From NCBI GenBank assembly GCA_003158745.1, contig PMLC01000079.1:1-64000 (forward strand): a stretch of DNA of 64,000 nt, read 5' to 3'. The notes under the pieces are model-generated. The model was not told where the DNA came from. It worked only from the letters and a program-made list of their open reading frames with translations, and made no database searches. The stretch comes from Acidobacteriota bacterium (GTDB lineage Bacteria; Acidobacteriota; Thermoanaerobaculia; Thermoanaerobaculales; Thermoanaerobaculaceae). Positions 35,719 through 50,681 of the stretch are shown piece after piece (the first letter of the stretch is position 1; each line of letters begins with the position of its first letter). Position numbers and translations under genes: made by a program.

Positions 35719-38700
35719 GGCAGCACCACAATCCGATCGAGCACCGCTTCACCTCCGGCCGGAGCCGCCAGGACGATGCCCAGCCGATGGTGCCCACCGG
35801 AAGCAGGTGCCGGCAGCTCGACCGCGCCGCGGGCCGCTCCGGCGACCGGAACGGGGCGGGCCGCAGCACCGTCCCACCGTACGGTCAAGCTGGCGCCGCT
35901 CTGAGCTGCACCCTCGAGCCACCCTTCAAGGCGCAATCGCGCACCGTTCGGCAGGTTGAGCGGAACATCGACACCCTCACCGTCGTGGACCCGCCAGCCA
36001 TTTGGGAGCACCCACCGCGAGAACGTCCCCGGCGGCGGTTCGAGGCGGCCGCCGATCCTCGCGATCTGCGGGTCCTCGATCTCCACGACCCGGTCCGTGC
36101 GGAGCCAGAGCGTGAGGACCACCACGGACCCTGCGACCAGCCATAGGCTGGCTCCGAGGTGGGCGGTGGCTCGGGCGAAGCCAGGGTGGTGTCCGCAGGC
36201 TAGGATCGCCAAGCCGCCGGCGATGACGATCAAGACCGGAGCGACGAAAGTCGCCGTCGAGATCCGAAGGAACGACGGGAACAAGTGGCGTGCGTCGGCG
36301 GCGAACCGGCGTGCCAGCGCGTCGGCCAACCACGACCCCCCGTCGGCGGGGTTAAAACCCAGGTGGGGCCGCGTGACCATCACCCACCAGACAACGAACG
36401 CGGCGGGCAGCAGCGCGAGGCCGAGCCGGCGCCAGCGCGAGGTCCCTCGCAGCACGAGCGCCGCGGACAGCCCCATGGCGGGAAGAAGCGGAACGAGGTA
36501 GCGCACCGGCGGACACCCGCCACCGTACCACTCCGGCGAGCTCAAAAGGGCTACAACGGTTAGCGCGCTGGCGAGGAGAGCGCCGCGTTCCCCGGGTCCG
36601 CCTTGCCGCCACAGCCGGCCGCTGCCGAGCAGTGCAAGCGCCAGCAGCGGCGCCGAGTAGAGCAAACCGCCCGCGGCATCGAAGGCCAAACCGAAGAAGA
36701 CGATTAGCGGCTGTCGCAGCGAGCGGGGCAGGAGGGAGTCCAGGCTGCGGAAGGGGCCGAGGGGGTGCCCGTAGACCAGCATGCCGAACGCCAGGCCAGC
36801 GGCGATCATGGCGCCGACCACGAGCAGCGAGACGGTCAGCTCCCGGCGGCTGCGCCGCCGGGAAACGAGCGCCACCAGGGGAAGTGGAAACGTCGCGAGC
36901 GCCAGGCGGGTCTTGAGGCTGGTCGCCATGAAGCTGGCGAGCGACGCCACCCCGATGCGGGGTCTCGGCTGACCGACGCACAGCAGCGCCAGCGCCGCGA
37001 GCAAGGCGCCGGGGACCTCGACCCAGATCTGCGTGGCGAACGTCGCGAGCGGATAGGTCGTGAGCAGGGCGCTCACGAGCAGCGCACGGCGCCTTCTCCC
37101 CAGTCCCAACCTCCCAGCACCCCGGGTCACAGCGGCGACGACGCCCGCGCCGAAAAGCGCCATCACCACGAGCGCCCCCGGGAGACCAGCGGCCGCGTAG
37201 CCCGGGAGGAGCAGAAACGCCAGCACCGGCGAGTGCAGGAACACCGAGCTGATGTAGATCGAGTTCTCGGGGTGGTGCTGCAGGTCGTAGTTGTTGGAAA
37301 GGTCGAGGTCGTGGTCCTCGGCAAGCGAGCGCAGCACGATTAGGTGGTACTGCGCGTCCACGCCCGGCGGCATCAGATGGGCGGTGGCGACCGCGAGCGG
37401 GACGAGCAGGGCGGCGGCGGTCGCGAACGTGCGGCCCCGGGCAAGCCAGGCCCGGGCTGCCGGGAGCCAAGCTGCCAGCAGCGCGGCGAGCGCAAGATCA
37501 ACCCCGTGACGTTCGGCGAGCAGCCGCAAGGGGCTCACTGGCAGCCTGGCCGCGATGGCCAGAGTGGTCAGGAGCGCCCACGGTATGAAGGCGGCGGGAG
37601 AACGCCAGCTCCGCCCCGCGAGTTGCAGAACCGCGACGACCACCGCTGCCGCCAGGATCCAGCTCGTCAGAGGCCAGTCGCGCGGTGGCGTCGGGCGTGA
37701 GGTACCGGCAGCGCCGACGCCCACGACCACGTCGGGTGGCAGACGCTCGGACCGCACCAGCCTCGGGCGAGCGCCTCTCGGCAGTTGCCAACTGCTGCGG
37801 CCTCCCACCGCCCAGGTGGAGTCCTTCCCGTACCCTGCGGGCCGCCACGCGGCTGCGGTCGGAAGCACGTGCGCCGCAACCCGCCGAACGTCGTCCCGTT
37901 CATGTGCCCACTCCGCCGTGTCGATCCCAACACGGATCGGCACGTCGGGCCCGATGTCGCGTACGACGGCAACCACGGAGCCCTGCGGCAGGAACGAGGC
38001 ATTGGCGAGTGAGATCTCGACGATGTAGAGGCCGCCATCCGATGTGGGCAGCACGGCCTCCGGACTCGCAGCGGTGAGTTCCAGACCCTGGCGGTCTGGA
38101 GGTGGAGGCTGAGGCTGGCCCAGGAGGCAGGCCACGGCGAGCCACGCGGCTCCTGCCAGCGCCGGTGGGAGGAGAGGTGTCACGATGAGAGCGGCGCCCC
38201 CGCCCGCGGCGAGGATCCAACCGGCAGCTGGGACCGCCTGGCCGAGGCCGATCCCACCCCACGGGGCGAGGGATGCCACGGTCAGCCCGACTGCGATGAG
38301 ACCGACGCTCCAGGCGGAGGCCAACCGGTCACTCCAGGTAGAATGCGATGCCACCGCTACGAAGACAACCGCCACGCCGGCCAGGCCAAGCAGGGAGGGA
38401 AGCAAAGCTCGCTCGAGCGGCGCCGCCCCGATCAGCAACGCGATCATGAGAGTCGCTCGCGGGCTCAGCACGCGGGCTGCAAGTCCCGCGACCAACGTGA
38501 CGGCGCCGACCACAACGGCGTCGTGCCAGAGCGGGTAGCCGGCGAGCCCCAGGCCGCCCGCTAAGCGTACCGCGAGCGCCAGAGCGACGACGATCACGGG
38601 ACGGTCGCACCGCGCCACGATCCGAAGTGCCGCTGCGCCGGTCGCCAAAGCCGCTATCACCAGCAACGGCGGGAGCGCCATCCGGCGCAGCGTGGGGTCG

Positions 38701-38924
38701 GCCAGAAGCACGAGGGCGAGCGCCGGGAGGAGGGTCATCCCCTCGGCGGCATGGCGCCGCCAGCCGACCGGGGCGAGCCATCCCGACGGGACGATCGCGA
38801 GCCCGACGGAGAGTGCCGCCAGAAGGGACTCGATGGATGGAACTCCACCAGCTCCCACCATCACCCAGGCCAGTGCGGCGAACGCTACCGCGGGCAGACA
38901 CGCCTGCAACCGGCGACGCATCAT
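35715..38924 (-). CDS. Large polytopic membrane protein, probable GT-C glycosyltransferase-like
   Basis: About 1069 aa from ATG 38924; many TM segments; central VDAQYHLIVLRSLAEDHDLDLSNNYDL typical of GT-C-type mannosyltransferase-like proteins; operonic with GT2 and GT4. Confidence 0.7.
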   Translation of the reverse strand: MMRRRLQACLPAVAFAALAWVMVGAGGVPSIESLLAALSVGLAIVPSGWLAPVGWRRHAAEGMTLLPALALVLLADPTLRRMALPPLLVIAALATGAAALRIVARCDRPVIVVALALAVRLAGGLGLAGYPLWHDAVVVGAVTLVAGLAARVLSPRATLMIALLIGAAPLERALLPSLLGLAGVAVVFVAVASHSTWSDRLASAWSVGLIAVGLTVASLAPWGGIGLGQAVPAAGWILAAGGGAALIVTPLLPPALAGAAWLAVACLLGQPQPPPPDRQGLELTAASPEAVLPTSDGGLYIVEISLANASFLPQGSVVAVVRDIGPDVPIRVGIDTAEWAHERDDVRRVAAHVLPTAAAWRPAGYGKDSTWAVGGRSSWQLPRGARPRLVRSERLPPDVVVGVGAAGTSRPTPPRDWPLTSWILAAAVVVAVLQLAGRSWRSPAAFIPWALLTTLAIAARLPVSPLRLLAERHGVDLALAALLAAWLPAARAWLARGRTFATAAALLVPLAVATAHLMPPGVDAQYHLIVLRSLAEDHDLDLSNNYDLQHHPENSIYISSVFLHSPVLAFLLLPGYAAAGLPGALVVMALFGAGVVAAVTRGAGRLGLGRRRRALLVSALLTTYPLATFATQIWVEVPGALLAALALLCVGQPRPRIGVASLASFMATSLKTRLALATFPLPLVALVSRRRSRRELTVSLLVVGAMIAAGLAFGMLVYGHPLGPFRSLDSLLPRSLRQPLIVFFGLAFDAAGGLLYSAPLLALALLGSGRLWRQGGPGERGALLASALTVVALLSSPEWYGGGCPPVRYLVPLLPAMGLSAALVLRGTSRWRRLGLALLPAAFVVWWVMVTRPHLGFNPADGGSWLADALARRFAADARHLFPSFLRISTATFVAPVLIVIAGGLAILACGHHPGFARATAHLGASLWLVAGSVVVLTLWLRTDRVVEIEDPQIARIGGRLEPPPGTFSRWVLPNGWRVHDGEGVDVPLNLPNGARLRLEGWLEGAAQSGASLTVRWDGAAARPVPVAGAARGAVELPAPASGGHHRLGIVLAAPAGGEAVLDRIVVLP

Positions 38925-39007
38925 CGCGCCGAGTATACGGTTTCGGACCGCTTCTCGGTTGACTCCCAGTTCGCAAAGCCCAACAATCCGGCGTCTGGAG
39001 GTCAGAC

Positions 39008-40291
39008 ATGCTGGCGCGAGAGCTCCTCCGCACCTCACCCGACCGCGTCCGGGCCGCTCTGGCGGCGCGGTGCAGCGACGCACCCTTGGAGCGGCTCCTG
39101 TCTGCCGACGTCAGTTGGCGGGAGGCCCAGGCCGAGCTGGAGGCGCTCAAGGCGGACCGCAACAGAGGGTCCAAGGAGGTGGGTGCCCTGTTTGCCTCCG
39201 GCCGCAGGGAGGAAGGCGAAGCACTGCGCGGCCGCATGGCGGCGCTCGGCGCAAAGATCGCGACCGCGGAGCAGGAGGCCGCAACGTTCGCGGACGAGGT
39301 AGCGGAACTCGAGCTCACCATCCCGAATCTCCCTCACGAGTCGGTGCCGGTAGGTCCGGACGAAACCGCGAACCGCGTGGAGCGCCGCTGGGGCGAGCCG
39401 CCGACGTTCGACTTCGAGCCGCAGGCGCACTGGGATCTGGGGCCCGCGCTCGGCATCCTTGACTTCGAGCGCGCCGCCAAGATCTCGGGCGCGCGGTTCG
39501 CGGTGCTGTGGGGCGTAGGCGCGGCTCTCGAGCGCGCGCTGGTGACCTTCATGCTTGACCTGCACCGTGGAAACGGCTACCGCGAGGTATACGTGCCGTT
39601 CATGGTCAACCGGCAGGCGCTGGTCGGAACCGGGCAGCTCCCCAAGTTCGAGGCCGATCTCTTCCGGGTCGAGGGCACGGACTACTTCCTGGTTCCGACC
39701 GCCGAGGTCCCGGTGACGAACCTGCACCGCGGCGAGATCCTGGCGGAAGAAACGCTCCCCCGCCGCTACTGCGCGTACACCCCATGTTTCCGGGCGGAAG
39801 CCGGGTCCCACGGCAGGGACGTGCGGGGCCTCTTCCGGCAGCACCAGTTCGACAAGGTCGAGCTGGTGCACCTCACCACACCGGAAACGAGCTACGCGGA
39901 ACTCGACGTGCTCACGCGTTCCGCCGAGCTGGTGCTGCAGAAGCTGGAACTCCCCTATAGGGTGATGACGTTGGCGACGGGGGACATGGGATTCTCCGCC
40001 GCCAAGACCCACGACATTGAGGTCTGGCTGCCCGGCCAGCAGTCCTACAGGGAGATCTCGTCGTGCTCCAACTGCGAGGACTTCCAGGCCCGTCGCACCG
40101 ACCTCAAGTTCCGGCCGGCTGGGGGCGGTAAGACCCGCCACCTTCACACGCTCAACGGGTCGGGGCTCGCGGTCGGGCGGACGCTCATTGCAATCCTGGA
40201 AAATTACCAGAGCGCGGATGGCACAGTGATCGTGCCAGAAGCTCTGCGTCCGTACCTTGGCGAGCTTGAGCGGCTCGCCCCGGAACGGTGA
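39008..40291 (+). CDS. serS: Seryl-tRNA synthetase
   Basis: N-terminal coiled coil; [89 protein letters not shown]. Confidence 0.97.
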
Positions 40292-42784: not shown

Positions 42785-44827
42785 ATGGACACCCCCGAGA
42801 CGCCGCAGCTCATCCCCGGTCTCCCCGAGAACGCCTACCGTCCCTTGAGACCAGGAGAGAAATACGAGCCGCTGATTGCACCCGAGCGGATCGTGCCGGA
42901 GGTCACGACTCGGTCGATCGTCCTCGGCCTCTTCATGACGGTGCTGTTCTCCGCGGCCGCCGCCTACATCGCGCTCAAGCTCGGCCAGGGGATCGAAACC
43001 GCCATCCCAATCGCAATCCTCGCGGTCGGCTGCTCGGCTCTGCTGGGCGCGGCGGGCCGGCGCCCGTCGACGATGCTCGAGAACCTTCAGGTCGCGACGC
43101 TCGGGGCCACGGCCGGGATCGTGGTCGGCGGTTCGGTGTTCGTCATGCCGGCGATCTTCGTCCTCGGGCTCGAGGGACGGTCGGGGTTCATGCAGATCTT
43201 CCTGGTTCCGTTCCTGGGAGCGGTGCTGGGGGTTCTCTTCCTGATCCCGTTCCGCCGCTACTTCGTCGCCGAGATGCACGGCAAGCTGCCGTTCCCCGAG
43301 GCCACTGCCACGACTGAGATCCTCGTCACGGGCGAGAAGGGCGGCAAAGCCGCGGGCGTGCTCCTGGGATCGATGGGCCTCGGGTTCGTGCTTGACTACC
43401 TTGCCGCCGGCTTTGAGGCGTGGCGGGATACCTTCTCGACCGCGATCGTTCCGGCGTTCGATGCCGCGACCAACCGGCTCAAGGCGATTTTCGCCCTTAA
43501 TACCTCGGCTGCGGTCATGGGACTCGGGTACATCATCGGTGTCCGGTATGCGGCGATCATCTGCGCCGGGTCGTTTCTGTCGTACTGGGTGCTGGTTCCG
43601 CTCGTCGCCCGCATCGGTGCCCAGGTGCCGGGCGGGTTGTTCCCCGGCATGCCGCCTGTCTCGGGGTTGGACGCCGAGGGCATTTTCGGGAACTACGTGC
43701 GTCTGATCGGCATCGGAGGGATCTTCGCCGCCGGCCTGATCTCGATCGCCAAGATGAGCCCGGTGATCGTACAAGCGCTGCGCACCGTGTTCAAAGAACT
43801 GACGCGCCTGAAGGCCGGTGGTGCCGCCGAGTCGCTGCCTCGAACCGACCGCGACGTGCCGATGGCCACCGTGGCCCTCCTCACCGCGGTCACCGCCGTG
43901 GCGATCGGGGTCTACTTCCGGTTCGTGGTCCTGGTCGGGGTGCCGGGCGCCACCGGCAAGGCGCTGATCGCACTCGCCCTGACGCTTGTGATCTCGTTCC
44001 TGTTCGCGGCCGTGTCGGCGTGGGCTGTGGCGATGATCTCGATCACACCTGTCTCGGGGATGACCCTCACCACCCTGATCGTGGCGGCCGTGATCCTGGT
44101 GCGCCTCGGTATGTCGGGCGGACAGGGGATGCTGGCCACGCTGCTGATCGGCGGGGTGGTGTGCACCGCGCTCTCGATGACCGGCTCGATGGTGACGCTG
44201 ATGAAGATCGGCTACTGGGTGGGTGGAACGCCGCGTCGGATCCAGTGGTCGCTCATCGGCGGGGCCGCGCTCGCCTCGCTCACCGTGACGGCCGTGATGC
44301 TGCTCTTCGCCCACACGGACGGGTACGTGCTGTCCGCCGCTCACCCGAGGCCGTTACCGGCGCCTCAGGCCAACGCAATGGCGGCCGTGGCGCGCTCGAT
44401 GATGGGGTCGGCCGAAGCGCCGTGGTTCCTCTACGGCCTCGGCGCGGTGATCGCCGTCGTGGTCGAGTTGGTGGGCGTCTCCGGTCTCGCCTTCGCGCTC
44501 GGAATGTACCTCCCGATGGACCTCAACACGCCGCTCCTCGTCGGCGCGATCGTGGCGTGGTTCGTCAAGCGCTCGGCCTCCGGCGACGGTGCGCTCGAGA
44601 AAGCTCGCGGCGACCGCGGCACGCTCGTGGCGTCCGGACTGATCGCCGGCGGGGCGCTCGCCGGCGTGTTCAAGGGCGCGATGGACGCGCTCCAGGACCG
44701 CCTCCACCTTCACCTGATTCACCATTTCGAGAACACAAGCTGGGGAGGAAACTGGCTCGGCCTGGCCGTTTTCGTCGCACTCGGTCTCGGCATCTTCCTG
44801 GATGCTCGCCGAGCCAGAGTCAGTTGA
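42785..44827 (+). CDS. OPT-family oligopeptide transporter
   Basis: EVTTRSIVLGLFMTVLFSAAAAYIALKLGQGIETAIPIAILAVG...KLPFPEATATTEILVTGEKGG; about 15 TM-like segments. Confidence 0.93.
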   Translation: MDTPETPQLIPGLPENAYRPLRPGEKYEPLIAPERIVPEVTTRSIVLGLFMTVLFSAAAAYIALKLGQGIETAIPIAILAVGCSALLGAAGRRPSTMLENLQVATLGATAGIVVGGSVFVMPAIFVLGLEGRSGFMQIFLVPFLGAVLGVLFLIPFRRYFVAEMHGKLPFPEATATTEILVTGEKGGKAAGVLLGSMGLGFVLDYLAAGFEAWRDTFSTAIVPAFDAATNRLKAIFALNTSAAVMGLGYIIGVRYAAIICAGSFLSYWVLVPLVARIGAQVPGGLFPGMPPVSGLDAEGIFGNYVRLIGIGGIFAAGLISIAKMSPVIVQALRTVFKELTRLKAGGAAESLPRTDRDVPMATVALLTAVTAVAIGVYFRFVVLVGVPGATGKALIALALTLVISFLFAAVSAWAVAMISITPVSGMTLTTLIVAAVILVRLGMSGGQGMLATLLIGGVVCTALSMTGSMVTLMKIGYWVGGTPRRIQWSLIGGAALASLTVTAVMLLFAHTDGYVLSAAHPRPLPAPQANAMAAVARSMMGSAEAPWFLYGLGAVIAVVVELVGVSGLAFALGMYLPMDLNTPLLVGAIVAWFVKRSASGDGALEKARGDRGTLVASGLIAGGALAGVFKGAMDALQDRLHLHLIHHFENTSWGGNWLGLAVFVALGLGIFLDARRARVS

Positions 44828-44906
44828 GGGTATCGCCGGCACTGCCGGCCGCCGTCGCGGACCACCTACCACGGCCTTTCTGTGCCCGGTGCCCTGCGCC
44901 CTGTCT

Positions 44907-47750
44907 CTAGAACTGGAACCCTATCCAGAACGACGTCTGGTTGCTCTTGTCCAGAGTGTGTTTGAAGTCCCACTGCTTCGAGAAATCCCAGTTGACCGGC
45001 AACCCAAAGAGGTCGAGCGACAGCCCGAAGCCGTAGGAGGAGACGCAATCCTGCAGCTGACTGTTGTTGACGCACCGGAAGGGCTGCTGGTACCCCGGGT
45101 AGTCCCACCAGGCGCCGCCCACGTCGAGGAAAAAGCGACCGCGCATCTCCGTGAGGTGCAACCATGGAAGCACGAGATGGTCAACAAGCGGGAAGCGCCA
45201 CTCGCTGTTGAGGTAGAACGCGTGGTTTCCAACCACTGAGGCGTAATCAAAACCCCTCAGGGTGTCGAGTCCGCCGAAGTAGAAAATGGAGGGCTGATTT
45301 CCGGAGGCGGAGGCCACGTGCAAACGAAACGCCAGCTCGTTCCGGCGGGAGAGCGGCACGTACTGGCGGCCGTCGAACACGATGTCCCTGCTGAGAACAC
45401 CGCCGCCGCTCCCGTTGAGAGCGAACGTATAGCTGAGTTGGTAGCGATTGCCGCCGTGAGGGCCGTAGTCCTGCCAAAACGTCGTGTCCCCAGTGAAGCT
45501 CGCCTGTACGAAGGGGATCTTGTTCTGGATCGAAGAAAAGGCCAGCTGGCCGTTCTGGTCGAGGAACGGGTAGTCCTGCTCCTGGTCGATATAGCCGACT
45601 GCACCTTCGACGCGATAGTAGAGCGAAAGCGGGTACGCCGTAAACAATGCGAACCCAGTTTGACGGGCGAGCCGCTGGCGCTGGATGTTGTCCTCGGCGG
45701 TAGTCGCGTAGACGTAGTAGGAACGGTTGTCGAAAACGCTCACGCCCCACTCAACACGCTTCGAAAGATCCACATAGGACAGGTTGAAGTTCGAGAAGCT
45801 GCTTTCCGAGGCCAGTAGAATGTCAAGGCGCCGGTCGCCGTAGTTGTCTGCGAACGACAGGTACGTCTGGGAAATCACGGTGTTGTCGCTATTGACGCCG
45901 ACGAGCACACTGGCGTTGTCGACGAAGAGCTTGTGCTTCTTCACCGGCTCAATCTTGTCCTTGCTGATGGCGACGGTGACGGAGGGGACGTACGGAAGCC
46001 TCTCCTTCACGACGGCCGGAGCCTCCTCCTTGCCGGAAGACTTGCCCTGGAGAGGGTCGGTGACGTACAGCCATTCGCGCCCCTTGCTGAACGCCTGGTA
46101 GACGACGCGTTCGCCGTCGCGCGTCGGGACTGCCACCGGGTTGAGCGCCGACCCGACCACCCTGGTGAGACGAAAGAGATCGCGGGTTGCCAGGTCCAGC
46201 GCGTAAATATCGGAGATGCCCTGATCGCGGTCCGAGGAAAAGTACAGTCTCTTGCCGTCGCGGGAGAAGCAGGCGCCCTCGTCGTTTCCGGGTCCAAAGG
46301 TCAGCTGGTGGCGCTCGGTGGGGTTTTCGAGGGAGATCTCGAACAGCTTGGCGTTCTCGGCGCTTTCGGAACTGTAAACGATGCTCTTCCCGTCGGCGGT
46401 GAAAACCGGGGCGGAGTCGTATGCATCGTCGTTCGTGAGGTTGGTGATCTTCTCCGAATCGAGGTCGAGCACGTAGATGTCGGCGCGGCCATTGGCCACA
46501 GCGTGGAACGCAATCGTCTTCCCGTCCGGCGAGTACGCTGGCTCCATTGGCTGATCGACCGCGATGGGGATCTCTCGGGCGATCCCGCCCTTGAGCGCGT
46601 TGAGCAGGAGAAGAAAGCGCCCGCGCTCGTGGCGCGCGAACACGGCGACGCGGTCGCCGTCCGGCGAAAACGACAGGTCACGCCCACGATCGGGACCAAC
46701 GGTCAGCATCTGCGCGACCAGGTACTGGTAACGAGTGGTCTCGCCGGGTGTCAGGTTGCGGAATAGCGACCGGTTGGGGACGCCGAGCAGGACGACGTCC
46801 GCGTCTTCCTTGTAGGTGGAGAACGCAGCCAGGATGTCGCCCGACGGTGAAGCGACAGGCGAAGTCTCGTACGGGCGGGTCCCTTCGGGGGCTCTGAAAG
46901 CCGGGCCGAACTCCCGCGGGTCGCTGCGGTCCGCTATGAGCGGCTGATAGTACTTTCTCAGCCAGGCACGGAAACGGCTGTCGAACTCCTCGACGTCGAG
47001 GTCGAACGCGCGCTTGATGGACTTCTGCATACCCCCGCCGAGGTTGCTGCGGAACTCGAAAACGAAGTCGCGTAACCCCTCCCCTCCCCATTCGGACTCG
47101 ACGAACTGGAACACCATGTGGCCGAAGCGGTACGCGAAGTAGCCGTAGACATTGTCGTTCACCGACGGAACGCGGTCGGAGGCGACCGCGTCCCGCATGA
47201 ACGCCCGGGCGCTGGCGTCCTCGTCGTTGCCCATGTAGGAGGCCATCCCCTCCATGAACCACTGCGGCGCGCGGCTGGAGAGTGCCTTGCCCAGTCTCCC
47301 CTGGTAGAGGATCTCGAACTGAAAAACGTGGGTCAACTCGTGCTGGATCAGCTTCTGGAGTTGCTCGTCGGGAAGGTCAACCGGCAGCACCATGCGGTTG
47401 CGCGACGGCACCGCGAACGCCCCCACGCCCTCCGGGATGAACTCGACCAGGACGTTGGTCTGCTCGAACTCCGCATGGGTCGCGTAAGCGATGAGCGGAA
47501 TCGGGTTCTTGACCTGGAAATTGAGGCGTCGGGCGAGCTCGTCGTAGGCACTTTCGGCGAACGACGCGACTTTCGGCAGCGACGGCTCGACCCTGTCGTA
47601 GAAGGAGATCCGGAAATGCGGCGTCGGGTAGACCTTCCAGTTGAATCTGTCGTAGCGGATCTTGTTCTTGCCGAAGAACGTGTAGTCCTGAGCCTGGCCC
47701 AGTGTGGCCACAAAAAGCGCCACCATGGGGACGAAGAAACGAGGCCTCAT
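44907..47750 (-). CDS. Outer-membrane fusion: gluzincin peptidase + TolB-like beta-propeller + Omp85-type barrel
   Basis: LIQHELTHVFQFE...WFMEGMASYMG; WD40/PD40 repeats (LSFSPDGDRVAVFA, PAYSPDGKTIAFHA, PVFTADGKSIVYSS, CFSRDGKRLYFSS); C-terminal LDTLRGFDYASVVGNHAFYLNSEWRFPL and terminal aromatic residue. Confidence 0.85.
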   Translation of the reverse strand: MRPRFFVPMVALFVATLGQAQDYTFFGKNKIRYDRFNWKVYPTPHFRISFYDRVEPSLPKVASFAESAYDELARRLNFQVKNPIPLIAYATHAEFEQTNVLVEFIPEGVGAFAVPSRNRMVLPVDLPDEQLQKLIQHELTHVFQFEILYQGRLGKALSSRAPQWFMEGMASYMGNDEDASARAFMRDAVASDRVPSVNDNVYGYFAYRFGHMVFQFVESEWGGEGLRDFVFEFRSNLGGGMQKSIKRAFDLDVEEFDSRFRAWLRKYYQPLIADRSDPREFGPAFRAPEGTRPYETSPVASPSGDILAAFSTYKEDADVVLLGVPNRSLFRNLTPGETTRYQYLVAQMLTVGPDRGRDLSFSPDGDRVAVFARHERGRFLLLLNALKGGIAREIPIAVDQPMEPAYSPDGKTIAFHAVANGRADIYVLDLDSEKITNLTNDDAYDSAPVFTADGKSIVYSSESAENAKLFEISLENPTERHQLTFGPGNDEGACFSRDGKRLYFSSDRDQGISDIYALDLATRDLFRLTRVVGSALNPVAVPTRDGERVVYQAFSKGREWLYVTDPLQGKSSGKEEAPAVVKERLPYVPSVTVAISKDKIEPVKKHKLFVDNASVLVGVNSDNTVISQTYLSFADNYGDRRLDILLASESSFSNFNLSYVDLSKRVEWGVSVFDNRSYYVYATTAEDNIQRQRLARQTGFALFTAYPLSLYYRVEGAVGYIDQEQDYPFLDQNGQLAFSSIQNKIPFVQASFTGDTTFWQDYGPHGGNRYQLSYTFALNGSGGGVLSRDIVFDGRQYVPLSRRNELAFRLHVASASGNQPSIFYFGGLDTLRGFDYASVVGNHAFYLNSEWRFPLVDHLVLPWLHLTEMRGRFFLDVGGAWWDYPGYQQPFRCVNNSQLQDCVSSYGFGLSLDLFGLPVNWDFSKQWDFKHTLDKSNQTSFWIGFQF

Positions 47751-47762
47751 CGAGCCCTCCCC

Positions 47763-48449
47763 TCAAGGTGTGAAGAGGAATCTCTTGGTCTTGATGGTGC
47801 GCGGGACGAATACGCCGATGAGCTGGTTCTCCAGCGCGAAGAGGTTCGAGAACATACCTGCAAACTCGTCGAAGTTGCGCTCCGGTTTTTCCTGGAAGTC
47901 CTTCAACGGTTGCGTGAAGACCTGGGCACCGGTGCGAGCGTCGTAGACGTTCAGGAGGATGTCGTAACTGAAACCGGTTTGCTCGACCATTCTCTGGCGG
48001 TAGTACTTCCGCCCGTCGATCGGGGACTCGTACTCCTCGGTCTTCATCCCGCTGCGGTCCTGGACCTGAAAATCGATCGAGCCGGCGACGATGTAATCGG
48101 CGCCGCTCCTCGTGCCGAGATCCCGCCAGAATTCGGCGTCTTTGGACAGGCGCAGCGGGTCCGAGGTCGGCGTGCGGACCCCCTCGATCGCGGGGACCAG
48201 CATGAACTTGCTCTCCTTGCGCAACAGCTTGCGGATGTAGCGTTCAAATTCCGCGGCGACATCGAAGGCAAGCTCTTGCGCCTTTTCATCACCCTTGCGC
48301 TCGCGCACGAACGGCCCGACGTAGAGCTTCTCGTGGCCGGTGAGCGCCAGCTTGGAACGCACGGGGAGCGCCAGCTCGACCTCCCGCACGCCCGCGGACA
48401 CCGCTGAAGCGACAGCGAACAAAGCGAGAGCGAGCCTAGTGGGGCGCAT
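47763..48449 (-). CDS. CsgG/GNA1162/FlgO-like periplasmic protein
   Basis: Signal peptide; SGADYIVAGSIDFQVQDRSG and SYDILLNVYDARTGAQVFTQPLKDF. Confidence 0.55.
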   Translation of the reverse strand: MRPTRLALALFAVASAVSAGVREVELALPVRSKLALTGHEKLYVGPFVRERKGDEKAQELAFDVAAEFERYIRKLLRKESKFMLVPAIEGVRTPTSDPLRLSKDAEFWRDLGTRSGADYIVAGSIDFQVQDRSGMKTEEYESPIDGRKYYRQRMVEQTGFSYDILLNVYDARTGAQVFTQPLKDFQEKPERNFDEFAGMFSNLFALENQLIGVFVPRTIKTKRFLFTP

Positions 48450-48810
48450 CGTTGGTTTCCTTCGGCTTCACACCCTTGGCGTAGCTGGTGTAGAACTCGG
48501 CGAAGCGGGCGTAGTTGCGGCGCAGCGGTGTCGGCTTCGACCCGGTCTGAAGCGCCTGCTTGTAGGTGGCAAGCGCCTCGTCGTAGCGGCCGAGCGCCTC
48601 GAGCGCCACCGCCAGGTTGTTCAGGACCTCAGGGCCGGAAGGCTCGATCGCCTGCGCGCTCTGGAAACGGAACAACGCCTCCTGCCAGTAGTTTCGCTGC
48701 GCAGCGCGAACCCCCTCACGCATCTCGGCGTGAGCTTGCGCGTGCGCTCCGCTGCTGGCACAGCCTACGGAGATGATCATGGCCGCCAGGACTCCCAACG
48801 CCAAGCGCAT
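48436..48810 (-). CDS. TPR-containing lipoprotein
   Basis: Lipobox-like IISVGC; TPR-like AQAIEPSGPEVLNNLAVALEALGRYDEALATYKQAL. Confidence 0.8.
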   Translation of the reverse strand: MRLALGVLAAMIISVGCASSGAHAQAHAEMREGVRAAQRNYWQEALFRFQSAQAIEPSGPEVLNNLAVALEALGRYDEALATYKQALQTGSKPTPLRRNYARFAEFYTSYAKGVKPKETNDAPH

Positions 48811-48879
48811 AGCACCCCCGAGAATGCAAGGCTATTATAGGCTTCGCCGGAGGGTCTCATTCCCAATTCTCGTCTCGCT

Positions 48880-49875
48880 TTGGCGTGTGTCGTTGCTCAC
48901 CCTGACGGAGGCCGAACGGCCCGTGATGTCGGTCGGGCGCTCCTCGCGCTCGACGCATCCGATGCCGACCCGGCCGTCTGGGACGCTCTCGCCAACCGTG
49001 TGTCGGCGGTCGAACAGACCCTGGCCGCGCTCGGGTGGCGATGGGTCCCATTTACCGATCCCGACTTTCCTCCCCGCCTCTCGACCGTGTCGGACCCGCC
49101 TCTCGGTCTGTTTGTGCGCGGCACGCTCCCAACCGATCACACCGTGGCGCTGGTGGGCGCTCGGCGTGCGACATCGTACGGGCGAGAGGTTGCCGAGTAC
49201 CTCGGGAGGGAGCTCGCCCTCGCCGGTGTGGCGGTCGTCTCCGGAATGGCCCGCGGGGTCGATGGGTCGGCGCACCGCGGCTCTCTGGCCGTAGGCGGAA
49301 GAACGGTTGCAGTCTGGGGCGCCGGGCCCGACCGGGTCTACCCGCCGGAGCACGCCGACCTTGCCGGGGAAATCGCCGCGCTGGGCTGCCTGGTCACCGA
49401 GTACCCGCCCGGGGCGCCGCCCCTCGGCCGCCACTTTCCGGAACGCAACCGGTTGATCGCGGGGCTGGTCGAAGCCGTCGTTGTGATCGAAGCCGACGAG
49501 CGATCGGGGGCTTTGATCACGGCGCGCCTCGCCCTCGACGAGGGGCGCGACGTGCTCGCGGTTCCGGGCTCGGTGTTCTCGCGCCTCTCGGCAGGGCCGA
49601 ACGGGCTCCTGCGCGCGGGCGCTGCTCCCGTGCTCTGCGCCGACGATGTGCTCGCCGCGGTGGGATTGCCGCCGCGGAGGCCAGCGCCTGGCGGCGAGGA
49701 GCCGGAGATCCTGGCCCTGATCCCGGCCGGCGAACCGATCACGGTGGATCGCCTTGCTGCGGCGAGCGGCAAACCCATAGCAGGAGTGCTCGAGGCGCTT
49801 CTGCTCCTGGAACTCGCCGGGCGGGTCGTCCGCGAGGCAGACGGGCGTTTTCGCCGCTGCCACGCCCACCCTTAA
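48880..49875 (+). CDS. dprA: DNA-processing protein DprA/Smf
   Basis: VALVGARRATSYGREVAEYLGRELALAGVAVVSGMARGVDGSAHRGSLAVGGRTVAVWGAG...FPERNRLIAGL. Confidence 0.94.
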   Translation: MACVVAHPDGGRTARDVGRALLALDASDADPAVWDALANRVSAVEQTLAALGWRWVPFTDPDFPPRLSTVSDPPLGLFVRGTLPTDHTVALVGARRATSYGREVAEYLGRELALAGVAVVSGMARGVDGSAHRGSLAVGGRTVAVWGAGPDRVYPPEHADLAGEIAALGCLVTEYPPGAPPLGRHFPERNRLIAGLVEAVVVIEADERSGALITARLALDEGRDVLAVPGSVFSRLSAGPNGLLRAGAAPVLCADDVLAAVGLPPRRPAPGGEEPEILALIPAGEPITVDRLAAASGKPIAGVLEALLLLELAGRVVREADGRFRRCHAHP

Positions 49876-50471
49876 GTCTCACCCAGCCTGAATGGGATTC
49901 GCACTTTGCTCTCCAGGAGGTCGAGGCGGAGTTCGTACGCTCCGGCCTGAACCCCACCTGGAACGAAGAAGCAGAGGCGCCCCGACGCGACCTCGAGGTC
50001 GTTAACCCAAACCGAGTCGAACGCGAGTCCCGTCCCGGGGGCGACGAGGAAGTTGAGGCTCTTTGGCTTGCGGCTGATGAAGTAGTCGAGGGGCTCGGAT
50101 GCGACGTCGGCCCGGGCCAGCGCGGCGGCAAGCTGCGGATACGCCTGCCCAAACTCCACCTGAGTGGCGAGCGGAACGATCTCCCCGCTTGGGATGCGGA
50201 TGGCGATCTTCTCGCGCTTCAATTCGACCGAGGTGCGACCGGTCCCGGTGACCGCCACATCGAGAAACAGCCACTCCTCGCCGAGGCGGAGGTCGGCGAC
50301 ACGGTAGCTCACGGCGGCCTCCACCTCGGGGCCGGCGTAGCGGAGAACGGTCCTGCCGACGCGGTCCACGCCAGGGGTTCCAGTGGGTGTCGCCGATCTG
50401 CAACCAGCGAGGGTGATCATCAAGACCACCGTGCCGAGAGCCACAACGGTTGTGAGAGCTGATCGCCTCAT
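49872..50471 (-). CDS. Predicted lipoprotein of unknown function
   Basis: MRRSALTTVVALGTVVLMITLAGC lipobox; DUF4352-like layout is speculative. Confidence 0.65.
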   Translation of the reverse strand: MRRSALTTVVALGTVVLMITLAGCRSATPTGTPGVDRVGRTVLRYAGPEVEAAVSYRVADLRLGEEWLFLDVAVTGTGRTSVELKREKIAIRIPSGEIVPLATQVEFGQAYPQLAAALARADVASEPLDYFISRKPKSLNFLVAPGTGLAFDSVWVNDLEVASGRLCFFVPGGVQAGAYELRLDLLESKVRIPFRLGET

Positions 50472-50681
50472 ACTTCCTCCCTGCCGCCAAGTCCGGCGTT
50501 CTGCAATTAGCCTACCGCACAGCAAGGGATGTGCCATCACCGGTGTCCGGGTAATGGCCCCGTCGCCGCTCGCTGCGACCACCAGATCGTACCGCAAAGG
50601 GACGTGTTGTCACCACGGATGGACAGGCGCGGCGTCCGGCCCCTCTTGACAGCGCTGCTAGAGTGCACCCCCGGAGGAAGC

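Follow-up and report, generated by a model that had tools for sequence, protein, structure and literature searches.

The Omp85 superfamily of outer membrane proteins is accepted to include subfamilies without polypeptide transport-associated (POTRA) repeats, and one of these, the WD40-Omp85 subfamily, was defined by Heinz and Lithgow in 2014 (PMC4104836), while in the PlpD study the WD40-like and metalloprotease Omp85 proteins are both named as uncharacterised (PMC11116518). Several POTRA-less subfamilies have now been known for a decade with no function assigned. The present analysis deals with a three-gene locus (the trio) found in 64,000 nucleotides of an Acidobacteriota genome of the family Thermoanaerobaculaceae (assembly GCA_003158745.1, contig PMLC01000079.1, positions 1 to 64,000; hereafter the window), which codes for a tetratricopeptide repeat (TPR) protein, a CsgG-like protein and a large protein joining a zinc peptidase, a propeller and an Omp85 barrel in a single chain. 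No description of this trio was found in a literature search limited to open-licence papers, and it appears unstudied.

The closest kind to the large protein is the WD40-Omp85 subfamily, which likewise possesses a TolB-like propeller N-terminal to an Omp85 barrel without POTRA repeats; however, the text of PMC4104836 on this subfamily mentions neither a peptidase nor partner genes, while the window family has both. PlpD is similar in having an enzyme domain fused to an Omp85 barrel, and this domain is periplasmic (PMC11116518), but PlpD is a patatin lipase with one POTRA, no propeller and no CsgG-fold/TPR operon, while the large protein is a metallopeptidase with a propeller, no POTRA and such an operon. 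The "metallo" Omp85 subfamily is described, in the same Heinz and Lithgow study, with an N-terminal metalloprotease domain, as in the large protein, and is defined there by PF00149 (PMC4104836). In Pfam, PF00149 is named Metallophos and is a phosphoesterase family, so that the published "metalloprotease" label rests on a phosphoesterase domain. This domain was not found by Pfam in the large protein, which has a gluzincin site instead, and membership in the "metallo" subfamily was therefore ruled out.

BepA, a zinc protease acting at the β-barrel assembly machinery (BAM), shares with the trio an HExxH...E peptidase, TPR and an Omp85 barrel at the outer membrane, but is one soluble M48-TPR protein beside BamA (PMC8423444), while in the trio barrel and peptidase share one chain and the TPR protein is separate and small. 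TolB has the same six-bladed PD40 propeller and an N-terminal domain of the CsgG-like fold class, united in one soluble protein, while the trio splits propeller and CsgG-fold over two polypeptides. In the PelBC exporter the PelB barrel is not of the Omp85 type, and PelB carries its own TPRs and has neither peptidase nor propeller, while the TPR of the trio is a separate protein. The likeness lies in the combination of a CsgG/PelC-fold protein, TPR and an outer membrane barrel; in PelBC, twelve PelC subunits make up a ring that sits on PelB (PMC12141448).

Against this background the computations gave the domains of the large protein with intact sites, its barrel of 16 strands, BamA and TamA as genes of their own in this genome, and a strict genetic linkage of the three genes, and the trio is one real, very conserved three-gene unit.

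Architecture of the large protein

A preliminary description made from the sequence alone had proposed an Omp85-type outer membrane protein with its own gluzincin domain and TolB-like propeller, and this proposal was borne out by Pfam, AlphaFold2 and Foldseek. Peptidase_MA_2 (aa 68-265; 33.3 bits, cut-off 32.4), PD40 repeats (84.6 bits) and Omp85 (aa 653-947; 40.3 bits, cut-off 24) all scored above their Pfam cut-offs, while Peptidase_M48 was not found by Pfam. As had been noted before, POTRA repeats were not recognised by Pfam at E<=0.1; BamA and TamA of the host score strongly. A profile of 50 homologues matched the PDB chains of TolB and BamA. The AlphaFold2 model, also run with 50 homologues (mean predicted local distance difference test, pLDDT, 88.2; predicted template modelling score, pTM, 0.85), contains in order a signal peptide, an alpha/beta peptidase domain (about residues 25-275), six counted propeller blades (residues 295 to about 600), where SPDG repeats, which are indeed present, had earlier suggested at least four, and 16 strands within residues 609-943, the strand number sought by the preliminary description. 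In Foldseek this model matched BamA barrels (TMt up to 0.66) and TolB.

The residues of both functional motifs are strongly conserved in a set of 50 homologues with 33-83% identity. The predicted HELTH...WFMEG site is intact, and H137, E138, H141 and E167 are invariant, as are R832, E850 and F874, while D876 is kept in at least 90%. The LRGFD sequence suspected of resembling the loop 6 (L6) motif is also present, with RGF 832-834 located in L6 between strands 11 and 12, and an invariant set of charged barrel residues is kept alongside this L6 RGF/strand 12-13 motif; in BamA, E717 salt-bridges R661 of VRGF (PMC12505904). Because zinc-site and L6 residues stay invariant at such identities, the motifs are not a matter of chance, and fold, number of strands and motif all identify the modelled barrel as one of the Omp85 type. 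Three deep members of the family (L230, L231 and L232) keep the L6 arginine and lose the glycine (LRSVGY, LRAANF and IRSTNY, respectively), which is unusual for Omp85 barrels.

The HExxH...E site was also present in every deep member and paralogue checked. Among 41 thinned loci the mean distance was smallest for the peptidase (0.62), followed by DprA (0.90), propeller and CsgG-like protein (1.01 each) and barrel (1.09). Since the zinc site is invariant and the peptidase evolves slowest, catalysis is likely to be at the core of the function of the large protein.

Conservation of the three genes

All three genes lie codirectionally on the minus strand (44907-48810), and the TPR and CsgG-like genes overlap by 14 bp, as originally described, while the gap between the CsgG-like and large genes, given then as 13 bp, was counted as 12 bp (47751-47762). 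In every one of the 37 orthologue loci of the class the genes are neighbours with the same orientation, and the same holds for 79 of 80 named loci, the remaining one being ended by a contig edge. In 60 genomes, including the host and its relatives, the barrel and CsgG-like proteins were present together in 43, absent together in 16 and mismatched in one, where a fragment lies at a contig end of a 65% complete genome. On the scale of the phylum (247 genomes) the CsgG-like protein was found in 102, and a match to the large protein was missing in only one of these. According to these data the co-conservation anticipated across related genomes is real (59 of 60 genomes concordant). Grounds for rejecting the preliminary description were checked as well, and neither a barrel without 16 strands, nor a broken HExxH...E site, nor a lack of co-conservation was encountered.

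Two genomes of the window's own genus (L255 in G008 and L256 in G004) lack the whole trio, and the OPT-transporter gene adjoins dprA; window bases 44817-48847 are gone as a block of about 4 kb, with a few hundred unrelated bases in their place. In two other loci the TPR and CsgG-like genes are fused (L158:4742-5788 and L179:4904-5923) and encode one chain of about 340-350 aa. One well-supported lineage, which is nested within the linked family, has its barrel gene elsewhere, and the TPR and CsgG-like genes stay together, mostly by dprA. Chance synteny with dprA is unlikely as the cause of the linkage, since the genes can be missing together, two of them can be fused and this pair stays together where the barrel gene has moved, and a horizontal island is unsupported, the distribution being phylum-wide and the place beside dprA fixed. 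The deep lineages retain all three genes, even those in which the middle protein can hardly be recognised, and the trio is ancestral in much of Acidobacteriota.

The partner proteins

The "CsgG-like" designation of the middle protein holds only at the level of fold. Its model (pLDDT 89.8) had as best Foldseek matches an FlgT-containing flagellar ring, FlgT, PelC, HpaA, GNA1162 and CsgG, where CsgG (E 4.8e-5) scored below FlgT, PelC, HpaA and GNA1162, and TolB (4r40_C) was matched at E 1e-3. Conservation is highest in the segment DRSGYxTEEYVSPxDGRTYYRQ, which forms a short charged hairpin. By reading of sequence and model, pore hairpins of CsgG type were not seen, the hairpin at 134-155, in the place of those of CsgG, being short and highly charged (GMKTEEYESPIDGRKYYRQR); the signal region of the window copy has no cysteine, and a lipobox-like N-terminus was found in only 6 of 77 homologues. 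Without pore hairpins or lipobox, a CsgG-type pore was ruled out for this protein. The "TPR lipoprotein" of the preliminary description is apt for the window copy, which has SVGC, and less so for the family, where a lipobox-like N-terminus was found in only 28 of 79 homologues (automatic choice of start codons may bias this count). As read from the sequences, lipidation varies among homologues of both partners and is probably not conserved for the TPR protein.

Distribution, host and paralogues

The named relatives belong to Acidobacteriota, mostly to Thermoanaerobaculia, and a contig scan of other genomes gave only Acidobacteriota-type records among its best 80 matches. A plasmid search yielded a single relative. 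This protein of 637 aa from Salinibacter ruber (plasmid pSR116, L216:6938-8839, annotated as "basic secretory protein-like protein") has the peptidase and the propeller and lacks the barrel, so that these two domains can occur by themselves. Paralogues of the PD40-Omp85 type without partners, about 30% identical (L074:7491-10826, L075:7657-10722, L076:7206-10379 and L236:7427-10492), also carry HExxH...E and a classic VRGY. With the Salinibacter relative they make up a clade apart, on a long branch, the window family being a clade of its own, and they are probably the published WD40-Omp85 kind.

The window genome encodes a five-POTRA BamA and a TamA-like Omp85 protein adjoining TamB, the latter pair pointing to the translocation and assembly module (TAM). 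The large protein is thus a third Omp85, additional to BAM and TAM, and replacement of the primary BAM was ruled out by the same genes. This genome also has a TolB-like PD40 protein apart from the large one (446-aa frame, E 2.8e-17).

Proposed function and alternatives

The trio is tentatively read, with confidence just short of even, as an accessory outer membrane machine, where a POTRA-less Omp85 barrel carries a periplasmic peptidase and propeller and is served by a CsgG-fold/TPR adaptor. For the large protein the most likely role would be that of an outer-membrane-anchored periplasmic protease in quality control or processing of outer membrane proteins. Omp85 barrels have an even number of strands, with both ends in the periplasm. 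Given this topology and the PlpD precedent (PMC11116518), the N-terminal peptidase and propeller would be periplasmic, held by the barrel at its periplasmic mouth. The propeller would likely dock substrates or partners, and the peptidase would cut polypeptides at the barrel, either clearing stalled outer membrane proteins or trimming barrel-handled substrates, a role proposed by likeness to BepA at BAM (PMC8423444), while the CsgG-fold and TPR proteins may work jointly in the periplasm as an adaptor through which the peptidase is controlled or fed. Proteolysis, its substrates and physical contact among the three proteins are what we infer. In a wider version, possible but on balance doubtful, the trio would be ancestral in Acidobacteriota and form, next to BAM and TAM, a third Omp85 machine whose POTRA-less barrel assembles or translocates substrates, cuts them with its own metallopeptidase and is fed by the CsgG-fold/TPR pair.

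Several points weigh against the accessory machine. The barrel gene is unlinked from the TPR/CsgG-like pair in one lineage, three deep members have lost the L6 glycine, and the barrel may be only an anchor, neither insertase nor channel. Five M48-family matches are found elsewhere in the genome, some of BepA-like length, and quality-control proteolysis may already be covered by such proteins. The evolutionary rate of the CsgG-like protein, corrected for DprA, goes with that of the peptidase domain (partial r 0.78), which speaks for the machine and is at least as close a match as that of the large protein's domains to one another (0.62-0.67); the TPR protein follows less (0.36-0.39). These values were corrected with DprA as a single control gene, however, and are supportive only, short of proving contact.

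That the barrel does no more than anchor an enzyme is rather unlikely. In this case neither assembly nor export would take place, peptidase and propeller would process peptides of the periplasm or a small number of secreted proteins, and the CsgG-fold and TPR proteins would act as regulators. This would agree with conservation being highest in the peptidase and lowest in the barrel, with the absence of POTRA and with PlpD, whose enzyme domain stays in the periplasm and which appears to have no lateral gate (PMC11116518). However, an anchor would not obviously need the L6 RGF/strand 12-13 motif and the invariant charged barrel residues that are kept here. This motif is important in Omp85 assembly factors. 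Export of a polymer or protein through the barrel, with a CsgG-fold ring placed as PelC over PelB, TPR recruiting the cargo and the peptidase trimming it, is quite improbable: although the CsgG-like model matches PelC and FlgT ring proteins, TPR, ring (twelve PelC subunits on PelB; PMC12141448) and barrel are the parts of PelBC, and TpsB members of the Omp85 superfamily do translocate proteins, L6 usually plugs Omp85 barrels, the CsgG-like protein mostly has no lipobox, and among the neighbours scored in a non-exhaustive survey only dprA was conserved, with no cargo or biosynthesis gene recognised. Display of peptidase and propeller on the cell surface, as by an autotransporter-like protease, was once proposed for PlpD and "metallo" Omp85 proteins (PMC4104836) and is hardly credible here, since later work placed the enzyme domain of PlpD in the periplasm (PMC11116518), TolB-like propellers are periplasmic and a folded propeller with a zinc enzyme is a poor passenger.

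Read as an accessory machine with an anchored protease, the trio suggests that PD40-Omp85 proteins may generally be membrane-anchored proteases, and it may represent a third bacterial system for building or policing the outer membrane. It also offers a testable case, with an intact catalytic site, a defined three-gene unit, two named partners and close genomes without the unit.

Coordinates and neighbouring features

Table 1. Features of the trio and its surroundings in the window
Feature	Position	Strand	Evidence
TPR protein, 124 aa, secreted, lipobox-like N-terminus (SVGC)	48436-48810	-	Open reading frame, Pfam, family comparison
CsgG/FlgT/PelC-fold protein, 228 aa, secreted	47763-48449	-	Open reading frame, profile, model, Foldseek
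Peptidase + propeller + Omp85-barrel protein, 947 aa	44907-47750	-	Open reading frame, Pfam, AlphaFold2, full-length orthologues
Predicted signal peptide, aa 1-20, ...LGQAQ, without lipobox Cys	47691-47750	-	Sequence; low-confidence model segment 1-24
Gluzincin (Peptidase_MA_2) domain, aa 25-275	46926-47678	-	Pfam; evolves slowest within the large protein
HELTH zinc/catalytic motif, aa 137-141	47328-47342	-	H137, E138, H141 invariant 50/50
E167 in WFMEG, presumed third zinc ligand	47250-47252	-	Invariant 50/50
TolB-like PD40 propeller, six-bladed, aa 290-602	45945-46883	-	Pfam, PDB profile match, AlphaFold2, Foldseek
Omp85 barrel, 16 strands, aa 605-947	44910-45938	-	AlphaFold2 strand count, Foldseek to BamA barrels, Pfam
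L6 motif RGF, aa 832-834, between strands 11 and 12	45249-45257	-	Conservation, AlphaFold2
E850, strand 12, counterpart of BamA E717	45201-45203	-	Invariant (50 homologues)
F874-x-D876, strand 13, Omp85 FxDxG-type motif	45123-45131	-	F874 invariant, D876 at least 90%
Block missing as a unit in two congeneric genomes	44817-48847	.	OPT and dprA genes adjoin at the empty site
dprA, divergently oriented neighbour retained in most lineages; serves as landmark outside the trio	48880-49875	+	Pfam, neighbourhood comparison

Beyond the trio, a 241-aa open reading frame (49872-50597, minus strand) between dprA and the topoisomerase-like gene that comes next had no Pfam match at E<=0.1. The AT skew reaches 0.23 at positions 36001-40000, which is strong in comparison with the rest of the window.

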